37,534 bases of DNA from Buttiauxella noackiae ATCC 51607. GTDB lineage: Bacteria > Pseudomonadota > Gammaproteobacteria > Enterobacterales > Enterobacteriaceae. Below are positions 8,830-37,307 of the stretch, piece after piece. Each line of letters begins with the position of its first letter. Positions within the stretch are counted from its first letter, which is position 1. A program made the translations under genes and the position numbers. Location: the NCBI RefSeq assembly GCF_001654865.1, contig NZ_LXEO01000037.1, forward strand, positions 1-37,534, read 5' to 3'. The notes beneath the pieces are model-generated. The model did no database searches and had not been told where the DNA came from. It was given only the letters and a program-made list of their open reading frames with translations.

Positions 8830-8836
8830 TGCTGTC

Positions 8837-13200: not shown

Positions 13201-13217
13201 TAGCAATAGTTATGCCA
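13201..13217 (-). promoter_or_regulatory. Sigma-54 promoter of lafB operon
   Basis: On the minus strand: TGGCATAACTATTGCTA, i.e. GG-N10-GC with TGGCA and TTGCT boxes. The start would be around 13190, about 30 bases before the lafB ATG. Sigma-54 promoters of lateral systems are driven by LafK, an NtrC/FleQ-like activator encoded outside this window. Confidence 0.7.
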
Positions 13218-13266
13218 ACTTTTAATTTATGTTAATTCAATGAGTTAAATCGAGGTGGGAAATACA

Positions 13267-13283
13267 TCTTCCGCATAGCGGAA
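13267..13283. terminator. Small hairpin between lafA and lafB
   Basis: CTTCCGC-ATA-GCGGAAG is a perfect 7-base stem between the REP pair and the lafB promoter. It has no clear T-run, so attenuation or mRNA-end protection is possible rather than strict termination. Confidence 0.3.
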
Positions 13284-16236: not shown

Positions 16237-17259
16237 TTAACGCAGTAAATTACTCACCGTACCCTGTCGCAAATTTGCCTGTGCGCCTAACGCTCTGGCA
16301 GTTGCGGCATAATCCTGGTGGCTGTTTTGTAAATGCTCTCGTAGTGCGCGGGCATGTTTCAGTGCCTCCGTAGGGCGGTATTGCGTCGCCATCTCATTGA
16401 TTCTTCGGCGCACATTGTCCTGGTGGTTGTACAACTGGCCGCGCTGTTGAGTCACTTGCTCCAACGCCTGCTGTACTTCCCCTTGATATTCACGCATCAG
16501 CGCGGGTTGCTGCGCCAACTGGCTCAGCGTGTCTGTCACTGCCGGTTCAGGGCGTGCCAGCAATGCGGTGAATTCATTAGCGGAAAAACGCTTTCCTTCC
16601 CCACGAACGCTTAACTGGCTACTGACCTGTGGCCAGCTTTTTTCATCCACGCTAAATGCCAGTGACTGCTGCTTATCAACACTGGCATGAATACCAAATC
16701 GCCCCAACCCCTGATTTAAACGCATAACATTCTGACGAGGTGTGGCACCTGCTTCGAGCGATACCGCCACCATTTCACGCCGCTGTCCGGCAAGAGAAAA
16801 AATCAACGTTTCGCTTTCATCATTCTGCAAAATTCGCCCAGCCGCTGGCAGCGTAAAATGCACCTGAGCGCTCTGCTCCGGGTCTACATCCAGATGCCTG
16901 TCAACAGTACCCGCCGTTAAATCCGGACGGTTATCCAGGAGTACAGAAAGGGAACGGGCAGCCTCATGAGCAGCATCGCCACGCAGTGAGCCGTGGCCAA
17001 CCGCATAACGCAGCTGTAAGAGCTGGTTTTCAACCTGCGATAAATAATTATCCGCCTGCTGGACTGAAGTCAGCTGCTGATTAAGCTGCACGTTATAACG
17101 CAGCGGGCGCGTAGAAATCAGCGGTGATTCAGGGAAACGGTTCTCAGTATTTTGCGCACGCGGTTGTGTCTGCTTTGACACCGCCGCGGTATGTTTCACT
17201 CCCCCGAGGTTCGAGGGAGTGCTTAAAGGAAGTCCTGCCTGGTTTAATCCAACCTGCAT
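16237..17259 (-). CDS. lafW: Hook-associated protein candidate LafW
   Basis: The 340-residue protein follows lfgL by 5 bases on the same strand, the position assigned to lafW in Flag-2 loci. The N-terminal region is polar and Gln-rich (VQLNQQLTSVQQADNYLSQ), the middle is beta-rich, and the C-terminal third is helical with a coiled-coil (YQGEVQQALEQVTQQRGQLY, RRRINEMATQYRP). Helical ends around a beta core are the architecture of axial flagellar proteins, but the sequence is not close to FlgK, FlgL or FliD. There is no signal peptide, consistent with flagellar export. It starts with a weak ribosome site and probably relies on coupling. Confidence 0.75.
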   Translation of the reverse strand: MQVGLNQAGLPLSTPSNLGGVKHTAAVSKQTQPRAQNTENRFPESPLISTRPLRYNVQLNQQLTSVQQADNYLSQVENQLLQLRYAVGHGSLRGDAAHEAARSLSVLLDNRPDLTAGTVDRHLDVDPEQSAQVHFTLPAAGRILQNDESETLIFSLAGQRREMVAVSLEAGATPRQNVMRLNQGLGRFGIHASVDKQQSLAFSVDEKSWPQVSSQLSVRGEGKRFSANEFTALLARPEPAVTDTLSQLAQQPALMREYQGEVQQALEQVTQQRGQLYNHQDNVRRRINEMATQYRPTEALKHARALREHLQNSHQDYAATARALGAQANLRQGTVSNLLR

Positions 17260-23316: not shown

Positions 23317-24512
23317 TACACAGCCTGCATTAGAGCGTTCATCATGTTGTCATTGGTGCTAATCACTTTGGTATTAGCCTGGTAGTTACGCTGAGCGCTC
23401 ATTAAACCAACCAGTTCAGAGGTCAAATCGACGTTGGACTCCTCCAGCGCATTGGATTTGATGTAACCCAGAAGACCGCTGCCTGGCGCACCAATTAACG
23501 GTGAACCAGAGGAACCGGTTTGTGCCCATGTCGTGCCATCTTGGGATTGCAGGCCATTCGGGTTCGCAAAGTTGGCAATGATGAGCTGCCCCTGCAACAT
23601 GCGCTCTCCGTTGGAGAAGGTGGCATAAACGTTGCCTTTTTCATCGACCTGCTGCCCGGTACGCTCACCCGATGCGTAACCATCACCCTGATTGCGGCTT
23701 ACGGAGAAATCAGAGCCATATTGGGTGGTGCCGGCGTAATTTAGTTTGATTTGGATTGGTGACGCACCGGTAGGTGCAAACGCCAAATCTCTCGAAGTAG
23801 ACCCATCAGCAAAGTTCGCCATATTTCCGTTAGTGCCGAATTTAATATCGTTCTCACCAATGCTGTTGCCATCCATGTAATAGTGGACTTTCCATTGGTT
23901 TTCAACGGTATCACTCTTAACGAAGTATTGCGTTAAGGTATGCTCGCGGCCCAGAGAATCAAAGATCTGTGTGGTATAGGTGTTGTTAAAAGAGGTGTCA
24001 TCTGTTGGGGAGAATTTTTTACCCGGCGCTTTTGCATTGGCATCAAAGTTCGCAGTAAAGCCTACATTTGAGGTCGCTTTCGCCGGAATAGAACCGCTCA
24101 TAATGCTCAGATTACTGACCGTACCCACCTGCAAATTACCGTTAGCATCGACAGGATAACCCTGCATGTTCATACCGAGGTTATTGACCAGGTTGCCGTC
24201 TTTGTCAGTACCAAAATAACCAGCACGGGTGTAAGAGGTGGTGCCGGTGGTATCGCGCACCACAAAGAAGCCGTTACCAGAAATCGCCAAATCCAGCGAG
24301 TTGCTGGAACTAATGATATTGCCGCCGCGGGTAATACTTTGCGTGACGCCAGTCACGCCCACGCCCAAAGGCTGAGACTGTGCATAAAGAGCGGAAAACT
24401 CCGCACGCCCGGACTTGTATCCCACCGTTCCGGTGTTGGCGATATTATTACTGATGGCCCCAAGCTGCTGGCTAATAGCGTTAAGACCTGACGTTGCGAT
24501 ACTAAAACTCAT
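23316..24512 (-). CDS. lfgE: Hook protein LfgE (FlgE)
   Basis: The 398-residue protein polymerises into the flexible hook. The start is the ATG at 24512 (MSFSIATSGLNAISQQL) with AGGATG about 7 bases upstream; a longer frame runs back into lfgD and is rejected. N-terminal signature: LGAISNNIANTGTVGYKSGR; C-terminal signature: NALEESNVDLTSELVGLMSA and QRNYQANTKV. The length is near that of E. coli FlgE (402). Confidence 0.96.
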   Translation of the reverse strand: MSFSIATSGLNAISQQLGAISNNIANTGTVGYKSGRAEFSALYAQSQPLGVGVTGVTQSITRGGNIISSSNSLDLAISGNGFFVVRDTTGTTSYTRAGYFGTDKDGNLVNNLGMNMQGYPVDANGNLQVGTVSNLSIMSGSIPAKATSNVGFTANFDANAKAPGKKFSPTDDTSFNNTYTTQIFDSLGREHTLTQYFVKSDTVENQWKVHYYMDGNSIGENDIKFGTNGNMANFADGSTSRDLAFAPTGASPIQIKLNYAGTTQYGSDFSVSRNQGDGYASGERTGQQVDEKGNVYATFSNGERMLQGQLIIANFANPNGLQSQDGTTWAQTGSSGSPLIGAPGSGLLGYIKSNALEESNVDLTSELVGLMSAQRNYQANTKVISTNDNMMNALMQAV

Positions 24513-24537
24513 GATTTCATCCTGATTACAAAAGTTG

Positions 24538-25218
24538 TTACGTCCGACGTGTGCCGGAAGCCTGTCCACCAAACTGACTGATACTGCTGTACGGGACTTC
24601 TCCAAGTCCGGCGATTTTCAGCATCGTGACGCCGCCTTTTAATGGGATACGCACGTTGCTGACTGTGCCGCCAATTTCCATAGGAATGGATTTTTCGGCG
24701 GTATCGGTCACAGCACTCAGAGTGTATTTGCCTTCCGGCAGACCCAGTTTTTTAGCATCGAGTGTGAAATCCACTAGTCCGGCCTGTTGGCGGCCCAAAT
24801 CAATCTTGTGTTCGTTGCCGCTGGCGTCTTTAACATGCACCGTTACCGACGATGCCGGGTGTTCCAGCGTCAGACGGCCATTGAGTACCGAGTCGCCCTG
24901 CAATTCCACACGGTCGGTTTGCACCATCACGTTTTGACCGACCAGATTGGCCGTAGTCAGCGTCTGCAAGTTGTCCATCATGATGCTGCTGTTTTGCATC
25001 AGACTGGCGACCTTCTCCATCGACTGCACCTGAGAAAGCTGTGCAAGTTGTCCGACATATTCCGTACCATCGGTTGGATTGAGCGGGTCCTGGTTTTGCA
25101 CCTGAGCTACCAGCAATTTCAGGAACATGTCATTCATACCTGATGCCGATTGCCCATTAGGGGAAATAGAACTTCCGCTGGTATCAGTCGCGTAAGTTGA
25201 GGTATCCGTTACATTCAT
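24538..25218 (-). CDS. lfgD: Hook-capping protein LfgD (FlgD)
   Basis: The 226-residue protein is the scaffold on which hook subunits assemble; it is absent from the finished structure. N-terminal FlgD signature: DMFLKLLVAQVQNQDPLNPT followed by DGTEYVGQLAQLSQVQSMEK. The C-terminal half is a beta-sandwich with ASGNEHKIDLGRQQAGLVDF. The ATG at 25218 has GAGGTG 6 bases upstream, inside the lfgC stop region. Confidence 0.95.
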   Translation of the reverse strand: MNVTDTSTYATDTSGSSISPNGQSASGMNDMFLKLLVAQVQNQDPLNPTDGTEYVGQLAQLSQVQSMEKVASLMQNSSIMMDNLQTLTTANLVGQNVMVQTDRVELQGDSVLNGRLTLEHPASSVTVHVKDASGNEHKIDLGRQQAGLVDFTLDAKKLGLPEGKYTLSAVTDTAEKSIPMEIGGTVSNVRIPLKGGVTMLKIAGLGEVPYSSISQFGGQASGTRRT

Positions 25219-25221
25219 CAA

Positions 25222-25647
25222 TTACACCTCGCCCAGACGCAGCACGCTTTGCTGCATGCTTTTGACATTACTGAGAACTTCAGCACTGGTTTCAAAACCG
25301 CGAGATGCCGACATCATGTCTGCCATCTCTTCCACCACGTTGATATCCGGGTAATAAACGTAACCTTCGTTGTTCGCCATCGGGTGATGCGGCTCGTAGC
25401 GTGAAACAGCCTGGCCGGTTTCTACCACATCCATAATCTGCACACGGGCACCTGCAAAGGCGTTATTTCCGGCGAGTTGGCTATTCTGGTAGATAGACGC
25501 AAAAACGGGGCGGCGTGCTTTATACACCGTGTCAGCACTTGCCGACGCGGCATCGGCGTTAGCCATGTTACTGGCGATGGTGTTCAACCTGACGGTTTGC
25601 GCCGTCATCGCAGAACTAGAGATTCGATAAATGTCCGTAAAAGCCAT
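25222..25647 (-). CDS. lfgC: Proximal rod protein LfgC (FlgC)
   Basis: The 141-residue protein is a proximal rod subunit. N-terminal: IYRISSSAMTAQTVRLNTIA followed by SNMANADAASA. C-terminal: GYVYYPDINVVEEMADMMSA followed by SRGFETSAEVL, as in FlgC. It has a good ribosome site (AGGAAG) and lies 18 bases after lfgB. Confidence 0.96.
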   Translation of the reverse strand: MAFTDIYRISSSAMTAQTVRLNTIASNMANADAASASADTVYKARRPVFASIYQNSQLAGNNAFAGARVQIMDVVETGQAVSRYEPHHPMANNEGYVYYPDINVVEEMADMMSASRGFETSAEVLSNVKSMQQSVLRLGEV

Positions 25648-25665
25648 ACTTTCTTCCTGAACGAA

Positions 25666-26016
25666 TTATTTGCCTTCGATGGCAGCCCGCAATCCCGAAA
25701 ATTTCATTTTCAGAAACGTCAGGCTCATTTGGTAGTCCATGCTGTTCTTCGCGAATGCAGCCTGCTCTACATCCAGTGCCACCGTATTCCCATCCGCAGA
25801 CGGTTGATAAGGCAGACGATATTTCACCTCGGTTTGCGCTCCCGGAAACAACGACTGTTTTGAACGTTGCATCTGCGCGGCAAAATCAATATCTTTAGCC
25901 TTGAAATTAGGGGTATCCACGTTGGCAAGATTGGTGGATAACAGCTCTGCCCTGGTCAGTCTGAGCTGCAATGCCTGTGGATGTACGCCTAATGCCTTGT
26001 CAAAACTAATGCTCAC
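25666..26016 (-). CDS. lfgB: Proximal rod protein LfgB (FlgB), GTG start
   Basis: The 116-residue protein is a proximal rod subunit and the first gene of the lfgB-lfgL block. It has ALQLRLTRAELLSTNLANVD with TPNFKAKDIDFAAQM, and a C-terminal NSMDYQMSLTFLKMKFSGLR. Two GTG codons compete: the one at 26022 abuts the ribosome site AAGGA, so the one at 26016 (MSISFDKALG), with AGGAG about 5 bases upstream, is chosen. The sigma-54 element at 26098-26113 should drive this operon. Confidence 0.93.
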   Translation of the reverse strand: MSISFDKALGVHPQALQLRLTRAELLSTNLANVDTPNFKAKDIDFAAQMQRSKQSLFPGAQTEVKYRLPYQPSADGNTVALDVEQAAFAKNSMDYQMSLTFLKMKFSGLRAAIEGK

Positions 26017-26097: not shown

Positions 26098-26113
26098 AGC
26101 AATTAACATGCCA
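26098..26113 (-). promoter_or_regulatory. Sigma-54 promoter of the lfgB operon
   Basis: On the minus strand: TGGCATGTTAATTGCT, with GG-N10-GC spacing and both consensus boxes. It lies about 80 bases before the lfgB start, within the lfgB-lfgA divergent gap, and would make the rod/hook block a middle-class transcript activated by LafK. Confidence 0.75.
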
Positions 26114-26126
26114 GGTTTATAACAAC

Positions 26127-26885
26127 ATGATTTTCAAACGGATAACTTCATCCCCCTCACCAATGAGGAAAAACATCTTCCGCCTGCTTTTTATCGGGCT
26201 GAGCCTCGTATGCAGTGCATCGCATGCCGCAGATGCGACTCATCAGTTGGATAAAATCTCCAGAAAAAGCGCCCAGGCGGAAATCAAAGAGATGGCGCAT
26301 AATCAAGGCTGGGGAAAATATGACTTACAGCTTGAAACGGTTCTTCCTACCGAAGCTTCAACATTGCCAGTATGCAAAAAAAATCCTGTAGCAACGCCGA
26401 CTGCCAGACGCACGTTGTACCGGCTTCGCTATGATGTCACCTGCCCAGACGCACAAGGCTGGACGCAGACGGTAGCAGTAAAAACAGTGGTCAATCTGCC
26501 TATCGTTATTGCCATGGAAACGCTGGAACGCGGACGTGTAATTGATACAAAGGATGTGGCTCTTAAGGTTCAGGATATTGCCCCACTCAATGCCCAGTTC
26601 TTTACCACGACAGATGAAGCTATTGGCCAAACGGTGAAGCGCCGTATTACATCCGCGCAGATTGTAAATTCCGCGCAGTTAGAACAACCCGTCATGGTTG
26701 AGCGTGGACAAAGTGTGTTGATGGTGGCTCGCCAGAACGACATCGAAGCCAGTACTTCGGGAGAAGCTATGAAACAGGGGCGTAAAGGGGATGTGATTCG
26801 AGTGAAGAACACCAGCAGCCAGCGCACCGTTGATGCAGTAGTGGTATCGCCTGGTGTGGTGCATATTCTTGTCGCTACTCGATAA
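26127..26885 (+). CDS. lfgA: P-ring chaperone LfgA (FlgA)
   Basis: The 252-residue periplasmic protein assists P-ring assembly. A signal peptide (about residues 13-34, KNIFRLLFIGLSLVCSASHA) precedes the mature part. The C-terminal SAF-type domain carries METLERGRVIDTKDVALKVQ, IGQTVKRRITSAQIVNSAQL and MKQGRKGDVIRVKNTSSQRT, all characteristic of FlgA. An alternative start at 26163 lacks a ribosome site. No convincing sigma-54 or sigma-28 element faces this gene. Confidence 0.94.
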   Translation: MIFKRITSSPSPMRKNIFRLLFIGLSLVCSASHAADATHQLDKISRKSAQAEIKEMAHNQGWGKYDLQLETVLPTEASTLPVCKKNPVATPTARRTLYRLRYDVTCPDAQGWTQTVAVKTVVNLPIVIAMETLERGRVIDTKDVALKVQDIAPLNAQFFTTTDEAIGQTVKRRITSAQIVNSAQLEQPVMVERGQSVLMVARQNDIEASTSGEAMKQGRKGDVIRVKNTSSQRTVDAVVVSPGVVHILVATR

Positions 26886-27271: not shown

Positions 27272-27709
27272 ATGACAACAACAGGCCAACGGATGACCGC
27301 TTTGTTGCAGGATATGGTGCAGGACAGACAGCGCTATATCTCGCTAAAGAATTTACTGGAAGAGCAACGCACACTTTTGCTTGAGCGCAATAGCGAAAAG
27401 CTAGAAAAAATGAGTGAGCAATTGCTTGAAATATATAATTTATTATCTGAGAGCGCTGAACGCAGGGCTACAACTTTAGTTTCTTTAGGTGTAACAGCAT
27501 CAATCGAGGGGGTTAATAAATTATTTAGCCACTTAGATGTAGAGAAAAAAAATAAGATATCTGTTTTACTTAATGACATCCATCAGCAGGCTAAAACATG
27601 TCAGTTACTGAATGAAAGAAATGGCATGGTTTTGCAGATGCAAATGGATACCTTCGCTAATATCATTAATAATTCTGAAGTTGACTGTGGGATTTATCAA
27701 GCGAATTAA
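27272..27709 (+). CDS. lfgN: HAP export chaperone LfgN (FlgN)
   Basis: The 145-residue, wholly helical protein corresponds in position and shape to FlgN, the export chaperone of FlgK and FlgL. It contains LQDMVQDRQRYISLKNLLEE followed by QRTLLLERNSEKLEKM, and a C-terminal CQLLNERNGMVLQMQMDT, similar to the FlgN ending with 'N..NG.ll'. It closes the lfgA-lfgM-lfgN transcript. Codon use becomes AT-rich in its second half. In the usual Flag-2 order the lfi/lfh genes follow here; instead IS debris and cargo begin. Confidence 0.9.
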   Translation: MTTTGQRMTALLQDMVQDRQRYISLKNLLEEQRTLLLERNSEKLEKMSEQLLEIYNLLSESAERRATTLVSLGVTASIEGVNKLFSHLDVEKKNKISVLLNDIHQQAKTCQLLNERNGMVLQMQMDTFANIINNSEVDCGIYQAN

Positions 27710-27725
27710 ACGAATTACCCGACAA

Positions 27726-28159
27726 TGATCTTACCCTCCAATAGTGGACATGCGACAAAGTGAGTAAACTCTCAACCGAAGATGACTCATGGCAAAACCA
27801 GTATCAGCCAGCAAGAAGTCCCGCAAACAAAATACATCTGAACTCCGCAACAAAACCCTGAAGCTTGCAGCGCGCATAGATGTTACTGCCGAAGCCAGGG
27901 AACTCAGTTTGTATGAATGCTAAAGGTTACGGCTATGACAATGTCTACGTGGAAAGCTTCTTCACTCCCTGAGTGATGGATTGTATTCACGGAGAACACT
28001 TTGCCAGCAAGGTTATAATGCGCTCAACAGTGTTTAATTATATCTAGCGTGATTACAATCTCTGGCGTCGCCACAGTGCGTTTGGTGGTCTCAGTCCGGA
28101 ACAATTTGAAAACCAGGATTTCTCTTAGGGCTAGGCCCACATTGCGTGGCTAGGATACA
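27726..28159 (+). mobile_element. Internally deleted IS3-family element
   Basis: A left terminal repeat TGATCTTACCCTCCAATAGT (27726-) and a decayed right repeat ending at 28159 (CCCACATTGCGTGGCTAGGA) bracket only 434 bases. Inside, an OrfA start (27789-27923; MAKPVSASKKSRKQNTSELR, then LKLAARIDVTAEARELSLYE) runs directly into the OrfB C-terminus (GYGYDNVYVESFF, HGEHFASKVIMRSTVFNYI, RHSAFGGLSPEQFENQ) with stops. A deletion of most of OrfA and OrfB makes it non-functional. A second remnant of the same element lies at 34.77-35.13 kb in the same orientation. Confidence 0.8.
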
Positions 28160-28404
28160 CGACCTACATCCGCTAAATCTGGACATAACCTGCTTCCTTC
28201 AGCGCCTGAAGTTTGACAACCGCACCACATTGTATTGGCTGTGTCTCTGGATCAAATACATTGCTCTTGCCGAACTTCCCTTTGCTATAGTTTTCAGATT
28301 GACGGGCTTGCCTGCACTTTCTACTTCCTTATGAAACGGAAGCCAACCTTCCCACTAAACACAAAATCATTCATATCATATTGAAATTTAATAAAATAAA
28401 ATAA
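28160..28404. other. Gap between IS remnant and cargo operon
   Basis: No supported gene. A 62-codon open frame at 28146-28334 has no ribosome site and no recognisable content. The part from about 28340 becomes AT-rich and leads into the sigma-54 promoter. Confidence 0.5.
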
Positions 28405-28420
28405 TGGCACGAATATTGCT
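28405..28420 (+). promoter_or_regulatory. Sigma-54 promoter of aminotransferase operon
   Basis: TGGCACGAATATTGCT matches the consensus TGGCACG-N4-TTGCW at every fixed position, with GG-N10-GC spacing. The predicted start is around 28431, some 26 bases before the first ATG. The same class of promoter heads lfgB, lafB and the convergent cargo operon. Confidence 0.8.
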
Positions 28421-28456
28421 TTTATAATTTAAAAGCTACCTTGTCTTTTATTAAAG

Positions 28457-29575
28457 ATGGTCAACCATACAAGAATGATGAATCAGATTACAGTTACGAA
28501 ACCTTTCATGCCGCCGTTAGAAGAATATATAAAATCATTAGAGGTGATATGGGAATCAAAAAATCTCACTAACGGTGGACCCTTTCACCAGCAGTTTGAG
28601 GCTGCGCTAGCTGAGTATCTGAATGTGCCGTATATAAGCCTGTTCAATAACGCGACGATGGCATTAATTGTTGCTATGCAGGCGTTGCGTGTACAAGGAG
28701 AAGTAATCACTACGCCCTATTCTTTTGTAGCAACGGCGCATAGCGTTATCTGGAACCACCTAACACCTGTCTTTGTCGATATCGAACCTGATACGTGCTG
28801 TATGGATCCTACGAAAATCGAACAGGCCATTACCTCAAAAACCAGCTTGATTCTGCCAGTACATGTTTATGGTCGTACCTGCAACACCTCAGCCATTGGA
28901 GAAATCGCGAATAATTATGGTCTGCGTTGTATCTATGATGCTGCTCATGCGTTTGGCGTCAAAGATGAGGGCGGCTCGATATTGCGTCATGGCGATTTAT
29001 CAATTCTGAGCTTTCATGCCACAAAGGTCTTTAACACATTTGAAGGTGGCGCTATCGCTTGTAACGATTTGAACCTGAAAAAACGTATTGATTATCTTAA
29101 GAATTTTGGTTTTGCCAGTGAAACTAAAGTGGTTGCATCGGGTATTAATGGCAAAATGAATGAGCTTCAGGCGGCTTTTGGGCTGCTGCAACTTAATTAT
29201 ATTGATGAGGCTATTTCCCGACGTAAAAGTATCGATCATATGTATCGCGAGCTTTTAACGGGGACGTCAGGAATTGCCCTGCCGCAAGAATGGGATTCTG
29301 AATCCCATAACTACAGCTATTTCCCGATCTTTGTTGGTGGTGAATATCCACTCTCTCGCGATGCACTGTACGACAAATTAAAAGCCGCAGGTGTTCATGC
29401 GCGTCGCTACTTTTACCCACTGATTTCAAACATGCCTATGTACAGCAAGTGCTCAGGAGCTAAGGAGCGGGACTTACCTGTTGCGAATGCCATGGCTTCT
29501 CAAGTGCTGTGTCTTCCTCTGTACCCTGACTTATCCTTTAGCGAAGTTTTAAAAATCGTTGGGCTGGTGAAGTAA
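28457..29575 (+). CDS. DegT/DnrJ/EryC1-family sugar aminotransferase
   Basis: The 372-residue PLP enzyme belongs to the family that transaminates nucleotide-linked keto sugars. Visible motifs are ITVTKPFMPPLEEY and LTNGGPFHQQFEAALAEYL at the N-terminus, TTPYSFVATAHSVIW, the aspartate-containing CIYDAAHAFGV, and the PLP lysine in SFHATKVFNTFEGGAI (Lys about 190). C-terminal AGVHARRYFYPLISNMP is also typical. The translation start may be the ATG at 28475 or 28478 rather than 28457, since the family usually begins close to 'VTKP'. It heads a three-gene operon; the next gene follows after one base. The substrate cannot be told; a 3- or 4-keto sugar or a similar carbonyl compound is likely. Confidence 0.9.
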   Translation: MVNHTRMMNQITVTKPFMPPLEEYIKSLEVIWESKNLTNGGPFHQQFEAALAEYLNVPYISLFNNATMALIVAMQALRVQGEVITTPYSFVATAHSVIWNHLTPVFVDIEPDTCCMDPTKIEQAITSKTSLILPVHVYGRTCNTSAIGEIANNYGLRCIYDAAHAFGVKDEGGSILRHGDLSILSFHATKVFNTFEGGAIACNDLNLKKRIDYLKNFGFASETKVVASGINGKMNELQAAFGLLQLNYIDEAISRRKSIDHMYRELLTGTSGIALPQEWDSESHNYSYFPIFVGGEYPLSRDALYDKLKAAGVHARRYFYPLISNMPMYSKCSGAKERDLPVANAMASQVLCLPLYPDLSFSEVLKIVGLVK

Positions 29576-29576
29576 G

Positions 29577-30842
29577 ATGAATGTACTCATATTTCCGGCG
29601 GGAACCGAAATTGGTCGTGAGATCTGGCTGTCGTTGCGCTATGTTAAAGAGATGAATCTTTTTCTTGGTGGAGCGCATTATGAAAATCATGCGCTCTATT
29701 ACAATCAGGAATACTTTGTCCTTCCTTCAGTAAATGAATCCAATTGGTTGAGTGAGCTGCAAAAATGCATCGCAGAAAATAAAATTGATTACATTTTTCC
29801 AGCTCATGATGATGCCATTGTTGCGCTGGTAAACCAGCGTGAAAACATCAACGCGGTTGTACTTAGCCCCGAAGTTGACGTGTGCAATATCACACGTTCT
29901 AAAACGTCTACTTATCGCTTATTTGAAGATGTTATTCGTGTGCCTAAAATATTTTCTGAGACTGATGAAATCAGTTACTGGCCGGTTTTTGTTAAGCCGG
30001 ATAGAGGACAAGGTTCGCAGGGGGCGATGCGTGTGGAAACAAGTGAGCAGCTTGCGATTCTACTAAAAAAAACTCCAGAAAATATTATTTGCGAATACCT
30101 TCCTGGAGAAGAATTCACCGTCGACTGTTTTTCTGACCGGAAAAAAGGCTTGCTTTTCTGTCAGCCCAGAACGCGGGAAAGAATTCGTAATGGCATTGCC
30201 ATGAGCTCCACAATCGTCGAACTTGAAGGCATTGGGGATATTGCTCAGAAAATATCTGCCAAGCTTTCTCTGCGCGGCGCTTGGTTTTTCCAGGTTAAAC
30301 GTTCTGCTTCAGGTGAACTGGTATTGCTTGAAATTGCACCACGTATTGCAGGGACGATGGCGCTCAATCGTGCCCGCGGAATTAACTTCCCGCTGTTGAC
30401 GATTTATGAAAGTCAGCTTACTGATGTTGGACTTTATGCCTTACCTGGCAACGTGAAAATAAGCCGTGGGCTTATCAACCGATATCGTACGGATATCATC
30501 TGGCAACACGTCTATGTTGATTTTGATGATACAATTATTATCAACGGCAATTTAAACCTCTCGCTAATACAGTTCCTATATCAGGCAGTAAATGCGAAAC
30601 AGACCATCACACTAATTTCCAGACACAAAGGCGATCTGCATGCCGAATTAGAAAAGTGGCGAATTGGTTCTCTTTTTGATCAGGTAATTCATTTAACGAG
30701 TGATGAGAAAAAATCACAGTTTATTACTCATTACAGCAGCATATTCATAGATGACAGTTTTGCAGAACGCAGTGAAGTACATCAACGCACCGGTATTCCT
30801 GTGTTTGATACAAGTATGGTCGAGTTATTAATCAATGAGTAA
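29577..30842 (+). CDS. ATP-grasp ligase fused to a HAD-like domain
   Basis: The 421-residue protein has two parts. Residues about 1-310 form a carbamoyl-phosphate-synthase-like ATP-grasp enzyme: NVLIFPAGTEIGREIW (nucleotide-type fold), FPAHDDAIVAL, FVKPDRGQGSQGA, IICEYLPGEEFTVDCF and the metal ligands in VLLEIAPRIAGTMA. Residues about 313-421 form a HAD-like domain with motif I VYVDFDDTIIING (DxDxT) and a later FIDDSFAER that would be motif IV. ATP-grasp enzymes join a carboxylate to an amine or similar nucleophile; HAD domains usually remove phosphate. The gene starts one base after the aminotransferase and overlaps the cytidylyltransferase by 8 bases. The exact product is unknown. Confidence 0.85.
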   Translation: MNVLIFPAGTEIGREIWLSLRYVKEMNLFLGGAHYENHALYYNQEYFVLPSVNESNWLSELQKCIAENKIDYIFPAHDDAIVALVNQRENINAVVLSPEVDVCNITRSKTSTYRLFEDVIRVPKIFSETDEISYWPVFVKPDRGQGSQGAMRVETSEQLAILLKKTPENIICEYLPGEEFTVDCFSDRKKGLLFCQPRTRERIRNGIAMSSTIVELEGIGDIAQKISAKLSLRGAWFFQVKRSASGELVLLEIAPRIAGTMALNRARGINFPLLTIYESQLTDVGLYALPGNVKISRGLINRYRTDIIWQHVYVDFDDTIIINGNLNLSLIQFLYQAVNAKQTITLISRHKGDLHAELEKWRIGSLFDQVIHLTSDEKKSQFITHYSSIFIDDSFAERSEVHQRTGIPVFDTSMVELLINE

Positions 30843-31227
30843 TATTATTACATTTGGTACGTTTGATGTTTTTCACGTCGGCCATTTAAATATATTAAAA
30901 CGAGCAAAAAGCTTGGGCAATAGATTGTTTGTTGGCGTGTCCTCTGATGCATTAAACTTTCAGAAAAAAGGCCGTTATCCTGTCTATGAAGAATATGACA
31001 GAATGTCGATTATTTCAGGCATTAAATACGTTGATGTAGTATTCCTCGAAGAGTCATTGGATCTGAAAGTCAGCTATATTCAGAAATACAATGCCGATAT
31101 TTTGGTTATGGGCGATGACTGGAAAGGTAAATTCGATCATTTTTCTAGTTTTGCAAAAATAATTTACCTAGAACGTACGCCTACCGTCTCAACAACCTCA
31201 ATTATTGAGGTGATTAAAAAGTGTTAA
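30835..31227 (+). CDS. TagD-like cytidylyltransferase
   Basis: The 130-residue enzyme is of the glycerol-3-phosphate cytidylyltransferase type and should activate a small phosphorylated alcohol with CTP to a CDP derivative. Motifs are GTFDVFHVGHLNIL (HxGH, His14-His17), the middle YPVYEEYDRM and the C-terminal RTPTVSTTSIIEVIK, equivalent to RTxGISTT. The length equals TagD (about 129). The substrate could be glycerol-3-phosphate or another phospho-alcohol made by the two upstream enzymes. Its product would feed the CDP-dependent transferase encoded convergently. Confidence 0.9.
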   Translation: MSNIITFGTFDVFHVGHLNILKRAKSLGNRLFVGVSSDALNFQKKGRYPVYEEYDRMSIISGIKYVDVVFLEESLDLKVSYIQKYNADILVMGDDWKGKFDHFSSFAKIIYLERTPTVSTTSIIEVIKKC

Positions 31228-31229
31228 TT

Positions 31230-31261
31230 ATCATCAGCCCCGCAGTGGGGCTGATGATTTT
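31230..31261. terminator. Shared bidirectional terminator
   Basis: ATCATCAGCCCC (31230-31241) pairs perfectly with GGGGCTGATGAT (31247-31258) around a 5-base loop. A T-run follows on the plus side, and ATAATT-type sequence on the minus side. It separates the two convergent cargo operons. Confidence 0.88.
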
Positions 31262-31264
31262 CTG

Positions 31265-32335
31265 CTAAGGGGCGTTAGTTATTGCATCAATAATTACTTG
31301 AGCCGAGCGAACGCCAGCATTCCCGTCGTTAAATGCATCGCAATATTCTATTTTTATACGAGAAATTTCCCTAGTATTATTATCCCTCGGATAGTCACCT
31401 GACAAATAGCGACGAATGTCGTCCATCTCCATTGCTACGGGTAAATACTGACGAACCAGTTGCTCCGGGCTATCGCAGGTGCTGAATGTCCTGTTATTTT
31501 TCAAAAGATCAGGCATTTCCGCCCAATCCAGCAGGATGATGCTCTTGTCCGCATTGATCGCATCAAAAATGAAACCACTATTATCACTGATAACATAGTC
31601 AGCGATTTCCAGCAGTTGAAAGATCGATGTTTTCTCTTGCACAATATCCCTGAGAAAACGTTTGGCTATTTTAAGTGCCTGTCTTTCACTCATTTTATAT
31701 AACGTCCCGTGATGTAATTTGGTAATGATATTGTATTCATTTCTAAGCCTACTCAGTTTTTTAGCCCAATGAGGTAACGAACTGAGTTCACCGTAAGTTG
31801 GGGCATAGAGTATGGTTGGTTTTGCAGGATCCATTTTAAGATAGTCCAACTCTACTTTGGAATAGTTTCTTTTATGCCAGTCATCGAAACGCGGATTACC
31901 GACAATTTTAGTATGTTCGGGCAGAGCAAGCGCGTCATATGTATATTTGCTATAGCATAAAATACGGTGGTATTTTTTATTCCATGCCGCATGGTTCCAT
32001 TCGTTTTTAGCTAAACCATACACTGCACGCACATGAACTTTCGCAATATCCTCGGCATAAGATAGATAATATGGTGTAATTAGTGCATCATATATCTTTC
32101 CATTTTTTAATACAGAGGAAAGTAAAATAAATCCCAGTTCAGGAATCTCTATTGTGCTGAGAAAACTCAACATATTGTTCACGAACCCATCTTCTATTAA
32201 GTCATTGATGATTACCTGGCACTCGGAATTATCATTCAGCAAGGCGAGGATAATATTACGATAAACCTCATAATGAAATGAAGTTTCCATCAAAAACCCA
32301 ATGCAATGTTTTTTACAATTAGCATCCTCAATCAT
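31265..32335 (-). CDS. CDP-glycerol glycerophosphotransferase-like protein (TagB/TagF type)
   Basis: The 356-residue protein resembles the catalytic half of TagB/TagF, which transfer a polyol phosphate from a CDP donor to an acceptor. Family features are VGNPRFDDWHKR, PTILYAPTYGELSSLPHW, ITKLHHGTLYKM (catalytic His region), and VISDNSGFIFDAI with IILLDWAEM, which form the CDP-binding site. No membrane segment is seen, so it would act on the inner face of the membrane or on a soluble acceptor such as a glycosylated protein. It is last in a three-gene minus-strand operon and follows the sulfatase-fold gene by two bases. Confidence 0.85.
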   Translation of the reverse strand: MIEDANCKKHCIGFLMETSFHYEVYRNIILALLNDNSECQVIINDLIEDGFVNNMLSFLSTIEIPELGFILLSSVLKNGKIYDALITPYYLSYAEDIAKVHVRAVYGLAKNEWNHAAWNKKYHRILCYSKYTYDALALPEHTKIVGNPRFDDWHKRNYSKVELDYLKMDPAKPTILYAPTYGELSSLPHWAKKLSRLRNEYNIITKLHHGTLYKMSERQALKIAKRFLRDIVQEKTSIFQLLEIADYVISDNSGFIFDAINADKSIILLDWAEMPDLLKNNRTFSTCDSPEQLVRQYLPVAMEMDDIRRYLSGDYPRDNNTREISRIKIEYCDAFNDGNAGVRSAQVIIDAITNAP

Positions 32336-32337
32336 AG

Positions 32338-33588
32338 TTAATTTCCCTTCGCAGCATAAGATTGAATATGGTGATGTTTATTATTGATAAAAGTATCCAG
32401 AACCCCTTTCATCTCCGGGTAACTTTTCGTTATGGCATCCAATGTGGCCGGATAGATGATGCTTTTATAATGAGGATGACACTTATCGTGTGTTTTTTTC
32501 ATAATCCTGTCAGGATTGTAACGCAAATTTCCCACTTTATCCTCGGTAAACAAATTGAGCAAATTAAAATGATTTCCTGGATCCATTGTCCATGAATACA
32601 TTTCATAGCCATTCACAGTTTTCATCAGATGAAAGTAATCAGAAGTGACACTATAACCTTTGCGCAACGCTTGATTCTTTTTACTTTCTGGTTGGGCTGC
32701 GGATAAGTTTCGGCTGAAACAGTATTTTCTACCGCCATTTAAATCAAACGTCGGGGCTGATACCAGATCGGTATCGGGAATATTTACCAGACTAAGCACA
32801 ATTTTCTTAATATCTACCATACTGATTAGGTGATTAATATCTGTGCTAGACATTCCAGGATGATAAATAAAAGCTGGGGTATGAATAAGTGATGTGTATG
32901 GTTCGATGGCATGAGTATAACCGCCGTTAGCACCGTGGGTCCAGAAATCATCACCATGATCGCCATACGCAATTACAATAGTATTATTCAGCTGATTATA
33001 TTTCATTAACAAACGAAATAGCTCTCCGGTCGATCGATCGAGATTGGCCCAGCCGCGATGCCAGTAATCAATGCCATGTTGTCCCATTTTTTTTCTGTCA
33101 AAACAGCAAATATGGCTAGTTGGGTTCCAGAAGTAGAGCGCCAGTGGAGATGTTGGAGATTGCAGATGGGCTTCAACTTTAGAAATCATATCTTGGCAAA
33201 TATCTTCCCAGATATACTGTTCATTGTTATGTTCGCGCCAGACCTCGCTCAACTTATCCCATCCTGTAGGAGACTCTGTTCCCAGAGTCTCATAACCCTC
33301 AGTTTTGAGAATATTGAAAATATTGCGGCATGTTTTGTTTACCGTCATCTCATCTCCAAACACCCGGTTATGCTCAAGCAACATATCATCACCGTGCAGT
33401 AAGTCGCTCATAGCCATGAATGTTGACGTCGCACTTGAAAAGAAACGATTAAGACGAATTGATTTTTGATATATTGTGTTGATAGCAGGAAACCATTGCC
33501 TGTTAGCAAAAATCTGTTGGTTTAGGCTTTCCATATGAATAAAAACGACATTAGGTTTCATTACTGTATCCAATATTATAGGAGCCAT
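32338..33588 (-). CDS. Sulfatase/alkaline-phosphatase-fold protein without membrane domain
   Basis: The 416-residue protein has the fold of sulfatases, LtaS-type phosphoglycerol transferases and phosphoethanolamine transferases. Recognisable are PNVVFIHMESLNQQIF (metal site), SSATSTFMAMSDLL (candidate Ser/Thr nucleophile), and the metal-binding AYGDHGDDFWTHG. LtaS and MdoB/OpgB relatives carry membrane helices and act outside the cell; none is seen here, nor a signal peptide, suggesting a cytoplasmic enzyme. An alternative start is the ATG at 33561. Activity on a phosphodiester, sulfate ester or phosphate is possible. It starts 7 bases after the GT2 gene. Confidence 0.82.
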   Translation of the reverse strand: MAPIILDTVMKPNVVFIHMESLNQQIFANRQWFPAINTIYQKSIRLNRFFSSATSTFMAMSDLLHGDDMLLEHNRVFGDEMTVNKTCRNIFNILKTEGYETLGTESPTGWDKLSEVWREHNNEQYIWEDICQDMISKVEAHLQSPTSPLALYFWNPTSHICCFDRKKMGQHGIDYWHRGWANLDRSTGELFRLLMKYNQLNNTIVIAYGDHGDDFWTHGANGGYTHAIEPYTSLIHTPAFIYHPGMSSTDINHLISMVDIKKIVLSLVNIPDTDLVSAPTFDLNGGRKYCFSRNLSAAQPESKKNQALRKGYSVTSDYFHLMKTVNGYEMYSWTMDPGNHFNLLNLFTEDKVGNLRYNPDRIMKKTHDKCHPHYKSIIYPATLDAITKSYPEMKGVLDTFINNKHHHIQSYAAKGN

Positions 33589-33595
33589 AGTAGGA

Positions 33596-34624
33596 TTAAA
33601 GATTCTCTAATCGGAGTTTCATTTCTCTCATAACGGTAAGTTTCTCTTTGTCATGATGACTGTTCTGAAGCTTTATTTTATAGAGCTCAATCAGGATATT
33701 AAGGCGAGTATCACAATGTAAAATAGCTATTGATAAATGCAAGAGTGTTTCTGCAGTTATGCCATCATCAATTAAAAATTTAAATTTTAAAAAATGTAGT
33801 AATGGGTCATAAGGCCTTTTTTGAAGAAGAATATCCACATCTTGTCTGTTCAGCAGCATATTCCTGGTATATTGTTTCCAGCGTAGATCCATCGCTCGTG
33901 GCCAGGACTGCTCTTGCTGCCATTCATCCATTATTTTCATACGATTCAGATACATAAGCTGTTCTCTGTCGTTTCTGAACCAGGTGTTATTCCCATGGCG
34001 TCGATAGCATGCAACGTTTTTCTTATCCGAAACAAATGGGCCACATTTTGCCAACTTCAGAAACATATCCCAGTCTTCCTGTATCAAGTCAGGATCAGAG
34101 CGTGATATTGTGCGAAATGCAGAGGTTCGAATTAAGCAACCGATATAAAGAAGTGGATTACCATTGATAAGTAAAAAATCGAAATGATCGCCATTTACGA
34201 AATGTGTGATGTAATTTCGGCGGCAGTTATTTTCGAGTAGTAATTGTATTCCGCCATAGCAAAGCGAAGCATCAGGATTTCTTTCTAACAGTTTAACTTG
34301 GTTCGCAATTTTATCTGGAAAAATATAGTCATCAGAATCTACTACTGCGATATATTTTCCTTGTGCTGTCAGCATCGCTTCGATAATGGGTTTGCTATCG
34401 TTCTTTACTTTCATGGAGTAATAATTGGTTTTTCTCTCAATAAAATTAAAATTATATTTCTTTTGATATTTTTTTATGATGTATTGTGAGCCGTCGGTAG
34501 AAGCATCATCAACGACAATAACTTCGATATTTTTATACGATTGTGCAAAAACGCTATCCAGTGCTTCGCCAATATATTTGCTGTGATTGTAGCTTGTTAT
34601 AACGATGCTAACTAAAGGACCCAT
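33596..34624 (-). CDS. Family 2 glycosyltransferase
   Basis: The 342-residue enzyme has a GT-A fold glycosyltransferase domain: PLVSIVITSYNHSKYIGEAL, VIVVDDASTDGS (residues 37-40 bind the nucleotide), VVDSDDYIF (96-99, the DxD metal site), and a likely catalytic acidic pair in IQEDWDMFLKL. The C-terminal 130 residues are helical and unassigned. No membrane segments are seen. The ATG at 34624 (MGPLVSI) has GGAG 6 bases upstream; a GTG at 34636 is inferior. It is first in the minus-strand cargo operon. Confidence 0.92.
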   Translation of the reverse strand: MGPLVSIVITSYNHSKYIGEALDSVFAQSYKNIEVIVVDDASTDGSQYIIKKYQKKYNFNFIERKTNYYSMKVKNDSKPIIEAMLTAQGKYIAVVDSDDYIFPDKIANQVKLLERNPDASLCYGGIQLLLENNCRRNYITHFVNGDHFDFLLINGNPLLYIGCLIRTSAFRTISRSDPDLIQEDWDMFLKLAKCGPFVSDKKNVACYRRHGNNTWFRNDREQLMYLNRMKIMDEWQQEQSWPRAMDLRWKQYTRNMLLNRQDVDILLQKRPYDPLLHFLKFKFLIDDGITAETLLHLSIAILHCDTRLNILIELYKIKLQNSHHDKEKLTVMREMKLRLENL

Positions 34625-34654
34625 AGTTGACTCCACGTGTTAAAAAACAATATA

Positions 34655-34670
34655 TGCAAATATCGTGCCA
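34655..34670 (-). promoter_or_regulatory. Sigma-54 promoter of glycosyltransferase operon
   Basis: On the minus strand: TGGCACGATATTTGCA, a full match to TGGCACG-N4-TTGCW. The start would lie near 34643, about 20 bases before the ATG. It is the mirror partner of the promoter at 28405. Confidence 0.8.
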
Positions 34671-34769
34671 GTATTTTTAACCTAAATTATCATTAGGTTA
34701 TACGGATAGGCGGAAAAGCTTCTTCCTCTCGTAACTATCCCGAGTTCGTGAAGCTTAATTAACCCAATT

Positions 34770-35129
34770 AAGGGTTTGGTTGTATCTACCTGTGGTCGAG
34801 TACCGTCATTGGCTGGTCGATGTCGCCTTGTATAACGGCACAATTTGCCTGCGACATACTGCAAATAGGACTCTGGCGGCGTAAACACTCAAAAAAATGT
34901 CATTATTCACGCGGACCGTGGCTGGCAATACTGTTTATCAGAGCTTACTGAAACGCCATAAACTGCTCGGCAGTATAAGTGCTAAAGGTTGCTGCTTTAA
35001 CAATGCCTGCGTGGAAAGCTTCTTTCACTCCCCCTAGGTAGAATGCATTCACGGAGAACACTTTGCCAGCAGAGATATAATGCGCACAACAGTGTTTAGC
35101 GTGATTACAATCTCCGCCGTTACAGTGCG
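34770..35129 (+). mobile_element. Second IS3-family transposase remnant
   Basis: Frameshifted pieces of OrfB are readable: LAGRC and [51 protein letters not shown] and HSRRTLCQQRYN with changed frames. The nucleotides are similar to the 27.9-kb remnant (for example GCGTGGAAAGCTTCTT), in the same orientation. The right end is cut by the IS30-family insertion at 35130. Confidence 0.7.
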
Positions 35130-36323
35130 TGTTGAAATGGTCGATGCAACGCTAACCTAAAACGAGGAGGTTGTTGCCATGAAACGAAGAGTGCGCATTA
35201 ACTACACGTCGGAACAGAAAGCGATTATTTGGGACAGATATAAGGAAGGTGATTTCCTGAATGACATAGCCAGAATGTTCGACAGATATAACTTTTTAGT
35301 TATGCCCACTCACTAGTCAGGTGGATATAATCCTCCCACCCGAATATGGCGCAGGCTGTCTCTTTCGCCTGACGAAAGGGAAGATATATCCAGAGGGCTG
35401 GCAGCAAAAATCAGCAACAGGGAGATAGTCAGAAAATTATCAAGAGCGTTCTCGACTATTAACCGCGAGATCCACAGACACGGCAGTTTAAAACAATATC
35501 GCGCAGCACATGCTGACAAACAGCATGGGAAAATGCCCTGTCGCCTAAACCCTGTAACTTAATTGAATGCCCCGCATTATGTATAGCCGTTGCAGAGAAA
35601 ATGCATTATGGCTGGTCGCCAGAACCAATCGACGGTTGGCTTAAACTCTGTTATCCCGACAACCAGAAAATGCATATGTCACGAAAAGACTTTTAAAGCG
35701 CTTTTTATACAACGCGGGGAGCTTTATAAAAAGAGCTGCAGCAGTGCCTCAGAAATGAAAGAACAGTACGTAAATCTAGAGCGGCATCACTTAAAGGGTA
35801 GAGATCAGGTTCAATCTCGGATGCGATACCCATCATCTGATGTTACAGACAGAGCCATACTAGATCACTGGGAGGGAGATCTGGTATAAGGTTCTAAAAA
35901 CTCATATATTGTCACGGTGGTAAAACGCAATTCCAGCTTTGTTATGTTGCCAAAATGAGTGACAACAAGACAGCCAAAGTCATATCCGTACTCATTTAAG
36001 AAACCCAATATTTACCTGTTGAACTGTATAAATCATTAACTTGGGATCGAGGGGTAGAAATGACTAATCACACCCTTTTTACCATAACGATAGATATTCA
36101 GGTCTATTTTTGTGATCCTCAATTTCCCAGACAACTTGGATCTAATGAAAATACAAAAGGTTACTAACACAGTATTTCCCAAGAGGAACTGACTTATCAG
36201 TTCGCAGCCAACAACGATTAAATAGCGTCGCCAAATAACTTAATGAGGGAACGAGAGAATGCTAAACTATGAATCATACGCAGAATTTTTTAATAAGATG
36301 TGTTGCATCCATCAGTTGAACTC
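35130..36323 (+). mobile_element. Degenerate IS30-family element
   Basis: The left end TGTTGAAATGGTCGATGCAA (35130-) and an imperfect inverse copy GTTGCATCCATCAGTTGAAC (36302-36321) frame about 1.19 kb, near the 1.22 kb of IS30. It lies inside the IS3-family remnant. Confidence 0.7.
35179..36240 (+). pseudogene. IS30-family transposase pseudogene
   Basis: The frame starts MKRRVRINYTSEQKAIIW (ribosome site GAGGAGG) and is broken by several stops and shifts. Family pieces are SLSPDEREDISRGLAAKIS followed by NREIVRKLSRAFSTINREI, then DRAILDHWEGDLV, SLTWDRGVEMTNH and VYFCDPQFPRQLGSNENTKG. These correspond to the N-terminal helix-turn-helix and the DDE domain. Confidence 0.8.
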
Positions 36324-36359: not shown

Positions 36360-37307
36360 TTATAATAAAGCGAAGCCGCTGAGTAAAAAACGCTCAGAAT
36401 CCTGCTTTGTATTAACTTTCATATTCTTTACTTTATCATCCCATTCAAAATAAGCACTAATCAGAGTCACAATTTGTTCCCTGTCATACCCTGCTATTTC
36501 TTGGCAGTAAATAGAGATAATCATTTTCAAACGAAAAATATGTTCGGACAACTGGAAGAAAGATGTGCCATAGTTTTCATTAGTATCAGGAAATGTATTA
36601 TTATAAATAATATAAACTAATAGATTAGTTAAGATCTCTTGGTGCCGATTGAAAAATCCTTCACCCTGTTGCCACCCAAACTGGATCTGTTGTAGTCGTT
36701 CAGCGAGTCGTTCATCATTTAAGATAGTCAACTCACTTAACTTCAATATAAATGCCATTTTATGTTCGAGAGGACGATTAATATTTAACTTAATTTTGCC
36801 AATTTCTTTAAGCGCTGTTAACCGAATTTGAATTATTTCTGGCAACTGGTTCATCTGTTTCTGGAGCTGATTATTATCTGCCAGTGACAATAGATTGCGA
36901 AAAAGATCATCAAGCATACTGATATCAGAAACAACTTCATTATTGTCGCTATGTACCTTGCTCAATAAAACACCAATTAGATAGATTTTTTGTTCTAATG
37001 AGATAGCAGGGTGAGTTGCAAAATTAATACACAACTGGTTAATAACTTCTAAACTAGGGTTGAATAATAAAGACGATTCACTAGCAATCTTACTTTCATG
37101 TAAAATAAAAGCTTGCGGATTTAATAATATTTCTTTTGCCGCAGTTTGACACGATAAAGAGAGACTTTCCCGCTGTTGATTTTTCCAGGTTAAAGTTACA
37201 TATGGGTAACCCTCACCTTCTTTCAGGCAATTCTGGCATTGGCATTTCTTATTATTCTCTTTAAATCTTTTTACATATTCAGGCTGGTAATTGTCAATAA
37301 GTTCCAT
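36360..37307 (-). CDS. FliB-like flagellin lysine methylase, shortened
   Basis: The 315-residue protein resembles FliB, which methylates lysines of flagellin. The N-terminus has QPEYVKRF, the FliB lead, followed by KCQCQNC where FliB normally has C-x(n)-CxxxCC. It then goes within 25 residues to ESLSLSCQTAAKEILLNP, matching FliB's 'LSLSCPEAARLIL'. The segment of roughly 70 residues expected between them, which carries further cysteines, is missing. The C-terminal helical part (HQEILTNLLVYIIYNNTFP, LSEHIFRLKMIISIY) is intact. FliB is about 400 residues, so activity is uncertain. A ribosome site GGAGA precedes the ATG; the upstream gene ends 37 bases away on the same strand. Confidence 0.62.
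   Translation of the reverse strand: MELIDNYQPEYVKRFKENNKKCQCQNCLKEGEGYPYVTLTWKNQQRESLSLSCQTAAKEILLNPQAFILHESKIASESSLLFNPSLEVINQLCINFATHPAISLEQKIYLIGVLLSKVHSDNNEVVSDISMLDDLFRNLLSLADNNQLQKQMNQLPEIIQIRLTALKEIGKIKLNINRPLEHKMAFILKLSELTILNDERLAERLQQIQFGWQQGEGFFNRHQEILTNLLVYIIYNNTFPDTNENYGTSFFQLSEHIFRLKMIISIYCQEIAGYDREQIVTLISAYFEWDDKVKNMKVNTKQDSERFLLSGFALL

Follow-up and report, generated by a model that had tools for sequence, protein, structure and literature searches.

How can acquired decoration genes be timed with the flagellum that they modify? The question is raised by a contig of Buttiauxella noackiae ATCC 51607 (NZ_LXEO01000037.1), which was analysed over its whole length of 37,534 bases and is called the window below. 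The window holds part of a flag-2 lateral-flagellar locus; LafB (FliD type), LafA (flagellin), LafS, LafT/U and LfgA/M/N are among the parts recognised. It also holds two runs of cargo genes, headed by a DegT/DnrJ/EryC1/StrS aminotransferase (DegT) and a family 2 glycosyltransferase (GT2). Both heads carry a sigma-54-type -24/-12 element with an inverted dyad upstream, as do the lfgB and lafB promoters of the same locus. The cargo operons are very probably class II (middle) flag-2 genes, driven by the activator LafK with sigma-54, that modify lateral flagellin. Sigma-54 control of flagellin glycosylation and flag-2 cargo are each known already; what the shared switch would explain is how acquired genes can join the timing of the flagellum. 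It also provides a candidate cis-element for LafK, for which no binding motif was stated in the literature searched, mostly freely readable papers. Publications are cited below by PMC number, for the portions of their text that were accessible.

Promoter elements at the cargo heads

The initial annotation had placed TGGCACG-N4-TTGCW ahead of both cargo runs. Both matches were exact (Table 1), and no other exact match to TGGCACGNNNNTTGCW was present in the window. The mean chance expectation is 0.03, and two matches were reached in none of 100 dinucleotide shuffles. When TGGCACGNNNNTTGCW was relaxed to three mismatches, 59 sites were found against 67 expected; since this is no commoner than chance, only near-perfect matches carry weight. 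Sites were scored over 12 positions of the sigma-54 consensus TGGCAYR-N4-TTGCW. Pattern scoring of the window and the genome gave 12/12 at DegT, GT2, lfgB and lafB, with GG and GC the fixed distance apart at both cargo sites. As annotated, the cargo sites are properly placed and oriented: both are intergenic, and they point at the first genes of the two cargo runs. The claim that lfgB and lafB carry the same class of site also stood, apart from the start of the lafB element, which is 13202 and not 13201. Across the 4,803,576-base genome, TGGCAYRN4TTGCW was matched ten times and the pattern read backwards nine times; four of the ten fall within the 37.5-kb window, at lfgB, lafB and the two cargo heads. 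A scan for sigma-28 promoters with a consensus pattern gave at best 6 or 7 mismatches in 16 positions at the cargo heads and did no better (7) at the lfgM and lafA controls, so that it decides nothing on sigma-28.

Inverted dyads were enumerated upstream of 83 sigma-54 sites from the window and from family flag-2 loci. A flag-2 genome was defined by an LfgA match at E <= 1e-13 (our own cut; 66 genomes), and loci were taken from 60 of the 65 genomes other than this one (G370, G310, G154, G209 and G098 were left out). GGAA-N7-TTCC was found in 46 of 54 non-redundant regions against 0.25 expected, expected values for the dyad being those of single-base shuffles. To avoid circularity, discovery was restricted to lfgB promoters (dyad in 31 of 39 non-redundant regions, 0.12 expected) and the held-out promoters were then tested. 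All 21 of these, comprising 18 cargo promoters of relatives and the DegT, GT2 and lafB promoters of the window, carried the dyad (0.06 expected). The inner dyad bases are a purine and a pyrimidine, each in 70 of 71 cases, and the element is thus written GGAAR-N5-YTTCC.

Dyad centres lie at -55.5 to -60.5 at lfgB promoters, 50 of 62 of which have the dyad. At cargo promoters they lie at -47.5/-48.5, -56.5 to -62.5, -78.5/-80.5 and -91.5 from the -24 T. For this comparison 18 of the 21 cargo sites outside the window were used; L085 and L089 were examined separately and both have the dyad. The spacing classes look like helical phasing, and the two cargo promoters of the window match lfgB and lafB both in architecture (dyad plus -24/-12 element) and in spacing class. 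An IHF-like element (integration host factor; at most one mismatch) was found between dyad and -24 in 45 of 71 cases against 8.2 expected. It was dropped as a defining part despite this enrichment because the copy at DegT carries two mismatches. Two further GGAA-N7-TTCC dyads in the window (16582-16596 and 25162-25176) are intragenic, have no 11/12 sigma-54 site near them and are possibly due to chance.

The activator gene lies outside the window, intact on contig C38. It encodes a LafK of 343 amino acids, 95% identical to that of the congener G317, with an AAA+ domain (Sigma54_activat) and a Fis-type helix-turn-helix (HTH_8). LafK is counted among the sigma-54 activators that have no signal-recognition domain (PMC3162934). 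The genome thus offers an enhancer-like element upstream of both cargo sites and an AAA+ activator that would pair with it. The dyad is assigned to LafK because its distribution tracks flag-2, which makes GGAAR-N5-YTTCC the putative LafK enhancer. With lafK/lfiM as query, matches of 60-80% identity were obtained in 1794 of 5426 E. coli genomes; the matches listed cover 27% of the query, and the result was not used.

Distribution of the combined pattern

Dyad and sigma-54 element were joined as GGAAN7TTCC-N37-67-TGGCN7TTGC. In this 4.8-Mb genome the combined pattern has exactly four matches, which are the four promoters; the reversed control has none. With TGGCAYR as the -24 part, 127 matches (the sum over per-genome rows) were spread over 67 of the 392 family genomes, compared with four in four genomes for the reversed control. 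The pattern is present in 61 of 66 flag-2 genomes and in 6 of 326 other family genomes. Matches of the lafB type were mostly assigned by spacing, and eight were examined directly (the window, L170, L171, L172, L178, L182, L183 and L184). Three of the six exceptions outside the flag-2 cut keep the regulator, G155 and G243 as lafK and G028 as lafK and lafS in pieces, and in all three the match sits before lafS. A fourth, G240, has a TagD-like cargo gene and no LafK orthologue (best 45%), and G239 and G119 look unrelated. An order-level draw of 305 genomes included 281 from outside the family. Two of these had the combined pattern, one at a flgB/flgA junction and one before a fliD-type gene beside flagellin (genes named by eye). 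Flag-2 function is described as largely uncharacterised (PMC6993521), and for this reason the combined pattern should help to find lateral-flagellar promoters and detached cargo across whole genomes.

Related cassettes were also found away from flag-2 loci. In G169 a cassette (L176, G169:C1:3229000-3244000) lies 2.2 Mb along the contig from the flag-2 matches of that genome, with a DegT 81% identical to that of the window facing a convergent run whose GT2 is 53% identical. Both of its heads have dyads, at -58.5 and -90.5, each with a 12/12 sigma-54 site. The dyad and a 12/12 site likewise stand ahead of two other genes away from the core locus: a methyltransferase gene of G381, a genome whose flag-2 locus is on another contig, and, about 113 kb from lfgB in G325, a GT9 gene with a methyltransferase gene after it. 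These detached cassettes indicate that the switch can travel with cargo or be regained by it. Whether modification genes spread as cassettes with a portable LafK address (dyad plus -24/-12), which would recruit them to the middle-gene step wherever they landed, is a proposal for which the odds appear even. The GT2 run of L176 also has an ATP-grasp protein, a GFO/IDH/MocA oxidoreductase and an FkbM methyltransferase.

The cargo block and its wiring in other loci

The two cargo runs are convergent, ending at 31227 and 31265, and all six open reading frames (ORFs) are open. The best Pfam match of the ATP-grasp protein stops at residue 277; nothing in Pfam matches the C-terminal part, which appears HAD-like by eye. 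Relatives of this protein at E <= 1e-25 were found in 17 other genomes (392 searched). The TagD-like protein scores 128.9 bits with TIGR01518, under the cut-off of 165.4, and the sulfatase-type protein matches a lipoteichoic acid synthase model at 1.2e-4, far under the cut-off. The GT2 start was set at the ATG at 34624; the longest ORF reaches 34636. Directly upstream of the cargo is lfgN (27272-27709), and lfiJ is on another contig, at 1169-1603 (L126). No sigma-54 site was found ahead of the LafV-like gene in the 227 upstream bases remaining before the contig end. The same-strand run after the lafB site includes LafS and the MotA/MotB-type LafT/LafU, and is presumably one operon.

Table 1. 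Positions of promoter elements, genes and insertion-sequence remnants in the window
Feature	Position	Strand	Details
Sigma-54 -24/-12 element TGGCACGAATATTGCT, DegT promoter	28405..28420	+	12/12 consensus positions; predicted start ~28430
Sigma-54 -24/-12 element TGGCACGATATTTGCA, GT2 promoter	34655..34670	-	12/12; predicted start ~34645
Sigma-54 element TGGCATGTTAATTGCT, lfgB run, reference promoter	26098..26113	-	12/12
Sigma-54 element TGGCATAACTATTGCT before lafB	13202..13217	-	12/12
Dyad GGAAGCCAACCTTCC, predicted LafK enhancer	28338..28352	+	centre 59.5 bp upstream of DegT -24 T
Dyad GGAAGAAGCTTTTCC, predicted LafK enhancer	34712..34726	-	centre 48.5 bp upstream of GT2 -24 T
Dyad, lfgB promoter	26167..26181	-	centre -60.5
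Dyad, lafB promoter	13258..13272	-	centre -47.5
DegT/DnrJ/EryC1/StrS aminotransferase, first gene of plus cargo run	28457..29575	+	Pfam PF01041 4.9e-98
ATP-grasp protein, 421 aa	29577..30842	+	Pfam PF15632 1.8e-18
TagD-like glycerol-3-phosphate cytidylyltransferase	30835..31227	+	PF01467 3.3e-22
TagB-like CDP-glycerol glycerophosphotransferase, last gene of minus cargo run	31265..32335	-	PF04464 1.2e-8
Sulfatase-superfamily protein, LtaS-like weak match	32338..33588	-	PF00884 2.1e-18
Family 2 glycosyltransferase (GT2), first gene of minus cargo run	33596..34624	-	PF00535 3.1e-26
LafV/FliB-like flagellin lysine N-methylase	36360..37307	-	NF038110 1.4e-18, 67.6 bits (cut-off 85)
LafS (sigma-28)	8837-9535	-	in same-strand run downstream of lafB promoter
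Left degenerate IS3-type remnant	27911..28068	+	repeats D1, D2, D4; IS3-family transposase matches from ~27911
Right degenerate remnant, direct copy of left	34973..35120	+	~7.06 kb apart; ungapped pieces 85-92% identical

The cargo had been described as foreign-looking, and its composition, flanks and distribution are in keeping with this. Its GC content is 0.36-0.45 against 0.50-0.51 at 24000-25999, it is flanked by direct IS3-type repeats, and the congeners G317 and G374 have lfgN directly abutting lfiJ, with the cargo absent. Among 12 genus genomes searched, a full DNA match to the DegT region was found only in the genome itself, and partial matches (66%) in two others. The cargo block was matched by 87 of 5426 E. 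coli genomes; the best 60 of 88 records cover at most 4% of it, all in the IS3-type stretch. Between the GT2 promoter and LafV (34973-36250) the window has the IS3-type remnant and, by eye, IS30-like transposase pieces.

Cargo wiring was counted in the flag-2 loci. Eight of 62 loci were omitted: L035 and L036 (no cargo), L064 and L091-L094 (rearranged) and L047 (disrupted). This left 54, in 50 of which a cargo ORF reached 130 amino acids or more; where lfiJ-lfiG were unrecognised, the slot was taken to the stretch end. A sigma-54 site matching 11 or 12 of 12 positions stood at a cargo head in 17 of these 50 loci, and 300 permuted motifs averaged 0.24 and never exceeded 3. L085, which has a 10/12 cargo site with a dyad, would be the eighteenth locus, leaving 32 without. 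Lone dyads in cargo loci that have no strong head are mostly intragenic, L085 being the sole further weak promoter. The rule that cargo always has a sigma-54 head unless it is fused to a core operon was rejected, as several unfused heads have no site.

A Maf-type gene after lfgA (PF01973, MptE-like, in L092) has a sigma-54 site and, where tested, the dyad. It was recognised by homology in L169 and L181, and ORFs of the same length are present in L091, L093 and L094. Its dyad lies at about -79 in L091-L093, L169 and L181. In L091-L094 the lfgB promoters have no dyad. LafK is longer in L091-L094 and L169 (444 amino acids in L092).

Proposed mechanism, alternatives and related systems

In the proposed mechanism a LafK oligomer would bind the GGAAR-N5-YTTCC dyad, which is centred about 48 or 60 bp ahead of the -24 box, and would activate sigma-54 RNA polymerase at the -24/-12 element of the cargo heads. 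Cargo would be switched on alongside the rod and hook genes headed by lfgB and the cap, sigma-28 and motor genes of lafB-lafS, and the modifying enzymes would be present by the time that lateral flagellin, whose gene is expected to be late, is made. The cargo products would most likely build and attach a glycerol-phosphate-type glycan on lateral flagellin before or during export. This type of modification is suggested by the TagD/TagB/sulfatase set, and it was proposed for such flag-2 genes by De Maayer et al. 2020 (PMC6993521). The block may have arrived between two IS3-type copies, bringing or acquiring its own LafK-type promoters. That the cargo is timed with the flagellum, as the initial annotation suggested, would agree with the dyad and spacing shared with lfgB and lafB and with a pattern that tracks flag-2; the sigma-54 wiring is not general among flag-2 cargo.

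Several observations weigh against LafK control of the cargo or narrow its reach. No 11-12/12 cargo-head site is present in 33 of the 50 cargo-bearing flag-2 loci; in many of these the cargo follows lfgN or lfiJ directly on the same strand and could be transcribed with a core operon. Two of the siteless loci, L039 and L132, share at least four cargo genes with the window, again behind lfiJ in the same direction. Of the 17 wired loci, 15 have one arrangement, with LafV first after lfgN, and probably represent few evolutionary events; the separate cases are L044 (a glycerophosphotransferase-like and methyltransferase protein) and the window with its two heads. The strict dyad is absent at 12 of 62 lfgB promoters, the IHF-like element at DegT is imperfect (two mismatches), and the lfiJ side of the cargo slot is on a separate contig. 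In Vibrio parahaemolyticus gel shifts, RpoN alone bound flgB2 and lafA and did not bind the predicted lafB site (PMC9817140).

The operons might be regulated as proposed and modify the cell surface (lipopolysaccharide, capsule) rather than flagellin, which is considered unlikely. Proteins of the TagB and sulfatase kinds work on polymers of the envelope in other bacteria. Relatives of the cargo outside flag-2, found with DegT and the ATP-grasp protein at 23 loci (L128-L131, L133-L141 and L156-L165), bear on the question from both sides. The DegT relatives at L157-L161 and L165 are without any tested flagellar landmark, and several have glycosyltransferase-like genes. Against a cell-surface target, 14 of the 23 loci adjoin the main-flagellar genes fliC and/or fliA; this adjacency supports a role in flagellin modification, and with it the surface-decoration role that the initial annotation gave to the cargo. 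The flag-2 slot has also been described as one for flagellin glycosylation/methylation, itself a prediction (PMC6993521). An 11/12 sigma-54 site at an intergenic cargo head was found at none of the 23 loci, where the dyad was not searched. Sigma-54 matches there are few and intragenic (one of them 12/12, in L164), except for one in L161 with no gene downstream.

That the sigma-54 promoters are real and served by another enhancer-binding protein (for example of the NtrC or PspF type), leaving the cargo untied from the flagellum, has a low probability. Besides LafK itself, the genome encodes a weak LafK-like AAA+ match and six strong ones (E 5.4e-54 or better), and in G239 the combined pattern precedes a run that includes TcyL-like permease genes and is probably not LafK-linked. 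Against another activator stand the distribution of the dyad, which tracks flag-2 and heads the lfgB and lafB promoters, and the lafK or lafK pieces kept in half of the six exceptions (G155, G243 and G028). Slightly less probable again is that the promoters are relics, with the cargo silent or read from sigma-70 promoters or by read-through. Debris derived from insertion sequences lies on either side of the block, a core gene is missing from about 22% of the flag-2 loci published (PMC6993521), and the TagD gene of G240 retains both a full dyad and the sigma-54 site where no LafK orthologue is present. Set against decay are four 12/12 sites, each with a dyad, and the open frames of the six cargo genes and of LafK. 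Chance matches in AT-rich intergenic DNA, for which the ordinary frequency of three-mismatch sites might speak, can be practically dismissed given the two exact matches, the genome-wide combined pattern confined to four promoters and the held-out dyad test.

The preferred reading, LafK and sigma-54 control of flagellin-modifying cargo, has partial counterparts. Lateral class II genes of V. parahaemolyticus are driven by LafK and sigma-54 as proposed here (PMC3930126, PMC4481668, PMC9817140), with sigma-54-type sites reported before flgB2, lafA and lafB (PMC9817140). For that LafK regulon the accessible text of these three papers describes no cargo operons, unlike in the window, and no LafK binding motif. 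In the Xanthomonas oryzae RpoN2/FleQ island a flagellar sigma-54 activator likewise stands over flagellin-glycosylation genes (PMC8657755). There the activator is FleQ and the cluster that of the main flagellum, whereas here LafK would act on a lateral flagellum with cargo that is flanked by insertion sequences and shares a dyad with the core genes. Flagellin glycosylation is also among the sigma-54 middle genes of Helicobacter and Campylobacter, where activation is by the FlgS/FlgR two-component system and the accessible text describes no comparable cargo slot (PMC3930126). The gene kinds are those of the VR1 cargo of Enterobacterales flag-2 loci (De Maayer et al. 2020, PMC6993521), which includes TagD, TagB, LtaS-like and WecE-like proteins, glycosyltransferases and LafV and lies between lfgN and lfiJ, probably the slot of the window cargo too. 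The main text of that paper does not contain the word 'promoter', whereas the window cargo has sigma-54 promoters with a common upstream dyad; unlike in the published account, related cassettes were found here outside the locus.

Four loci in genomes outside the flag-2 cut stand out. L185 (G155:C2:320000-338000) and L186 (G243:C1:3104000-3122000) are regulator-only flag-2 remnants beside leucine-synthesis-type genes. They hold lafK (67% identical to that of the window genome), lfgM, lfgN, a ToxR-type regulator and lafS, the last with a dyad and a sigma-54 element ahead of it. Neither 18-kb stretch showed a recognisable structural flagellar gene, no LfgA match is present in G155 or G243, and the cascade may have been retained for another purpose. 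L190 (G028:C1:4436000-4454000) is a decayed remnant, in a genome listed as 49% complete, with lafK and lafS each spread over two ORFs; the dyad and 12/12 site before lafS are intact despite the split gene. L187 (G240:C12:80000-98000) holds the orphan TagD-like gene (8501-8893, 81% identical to that of the window) with a full dyad and 12/12 sigma-54 site in the genome without a LafK orthologue, followed by a chemoreceptor gene and a diguanylate cyclase gene.

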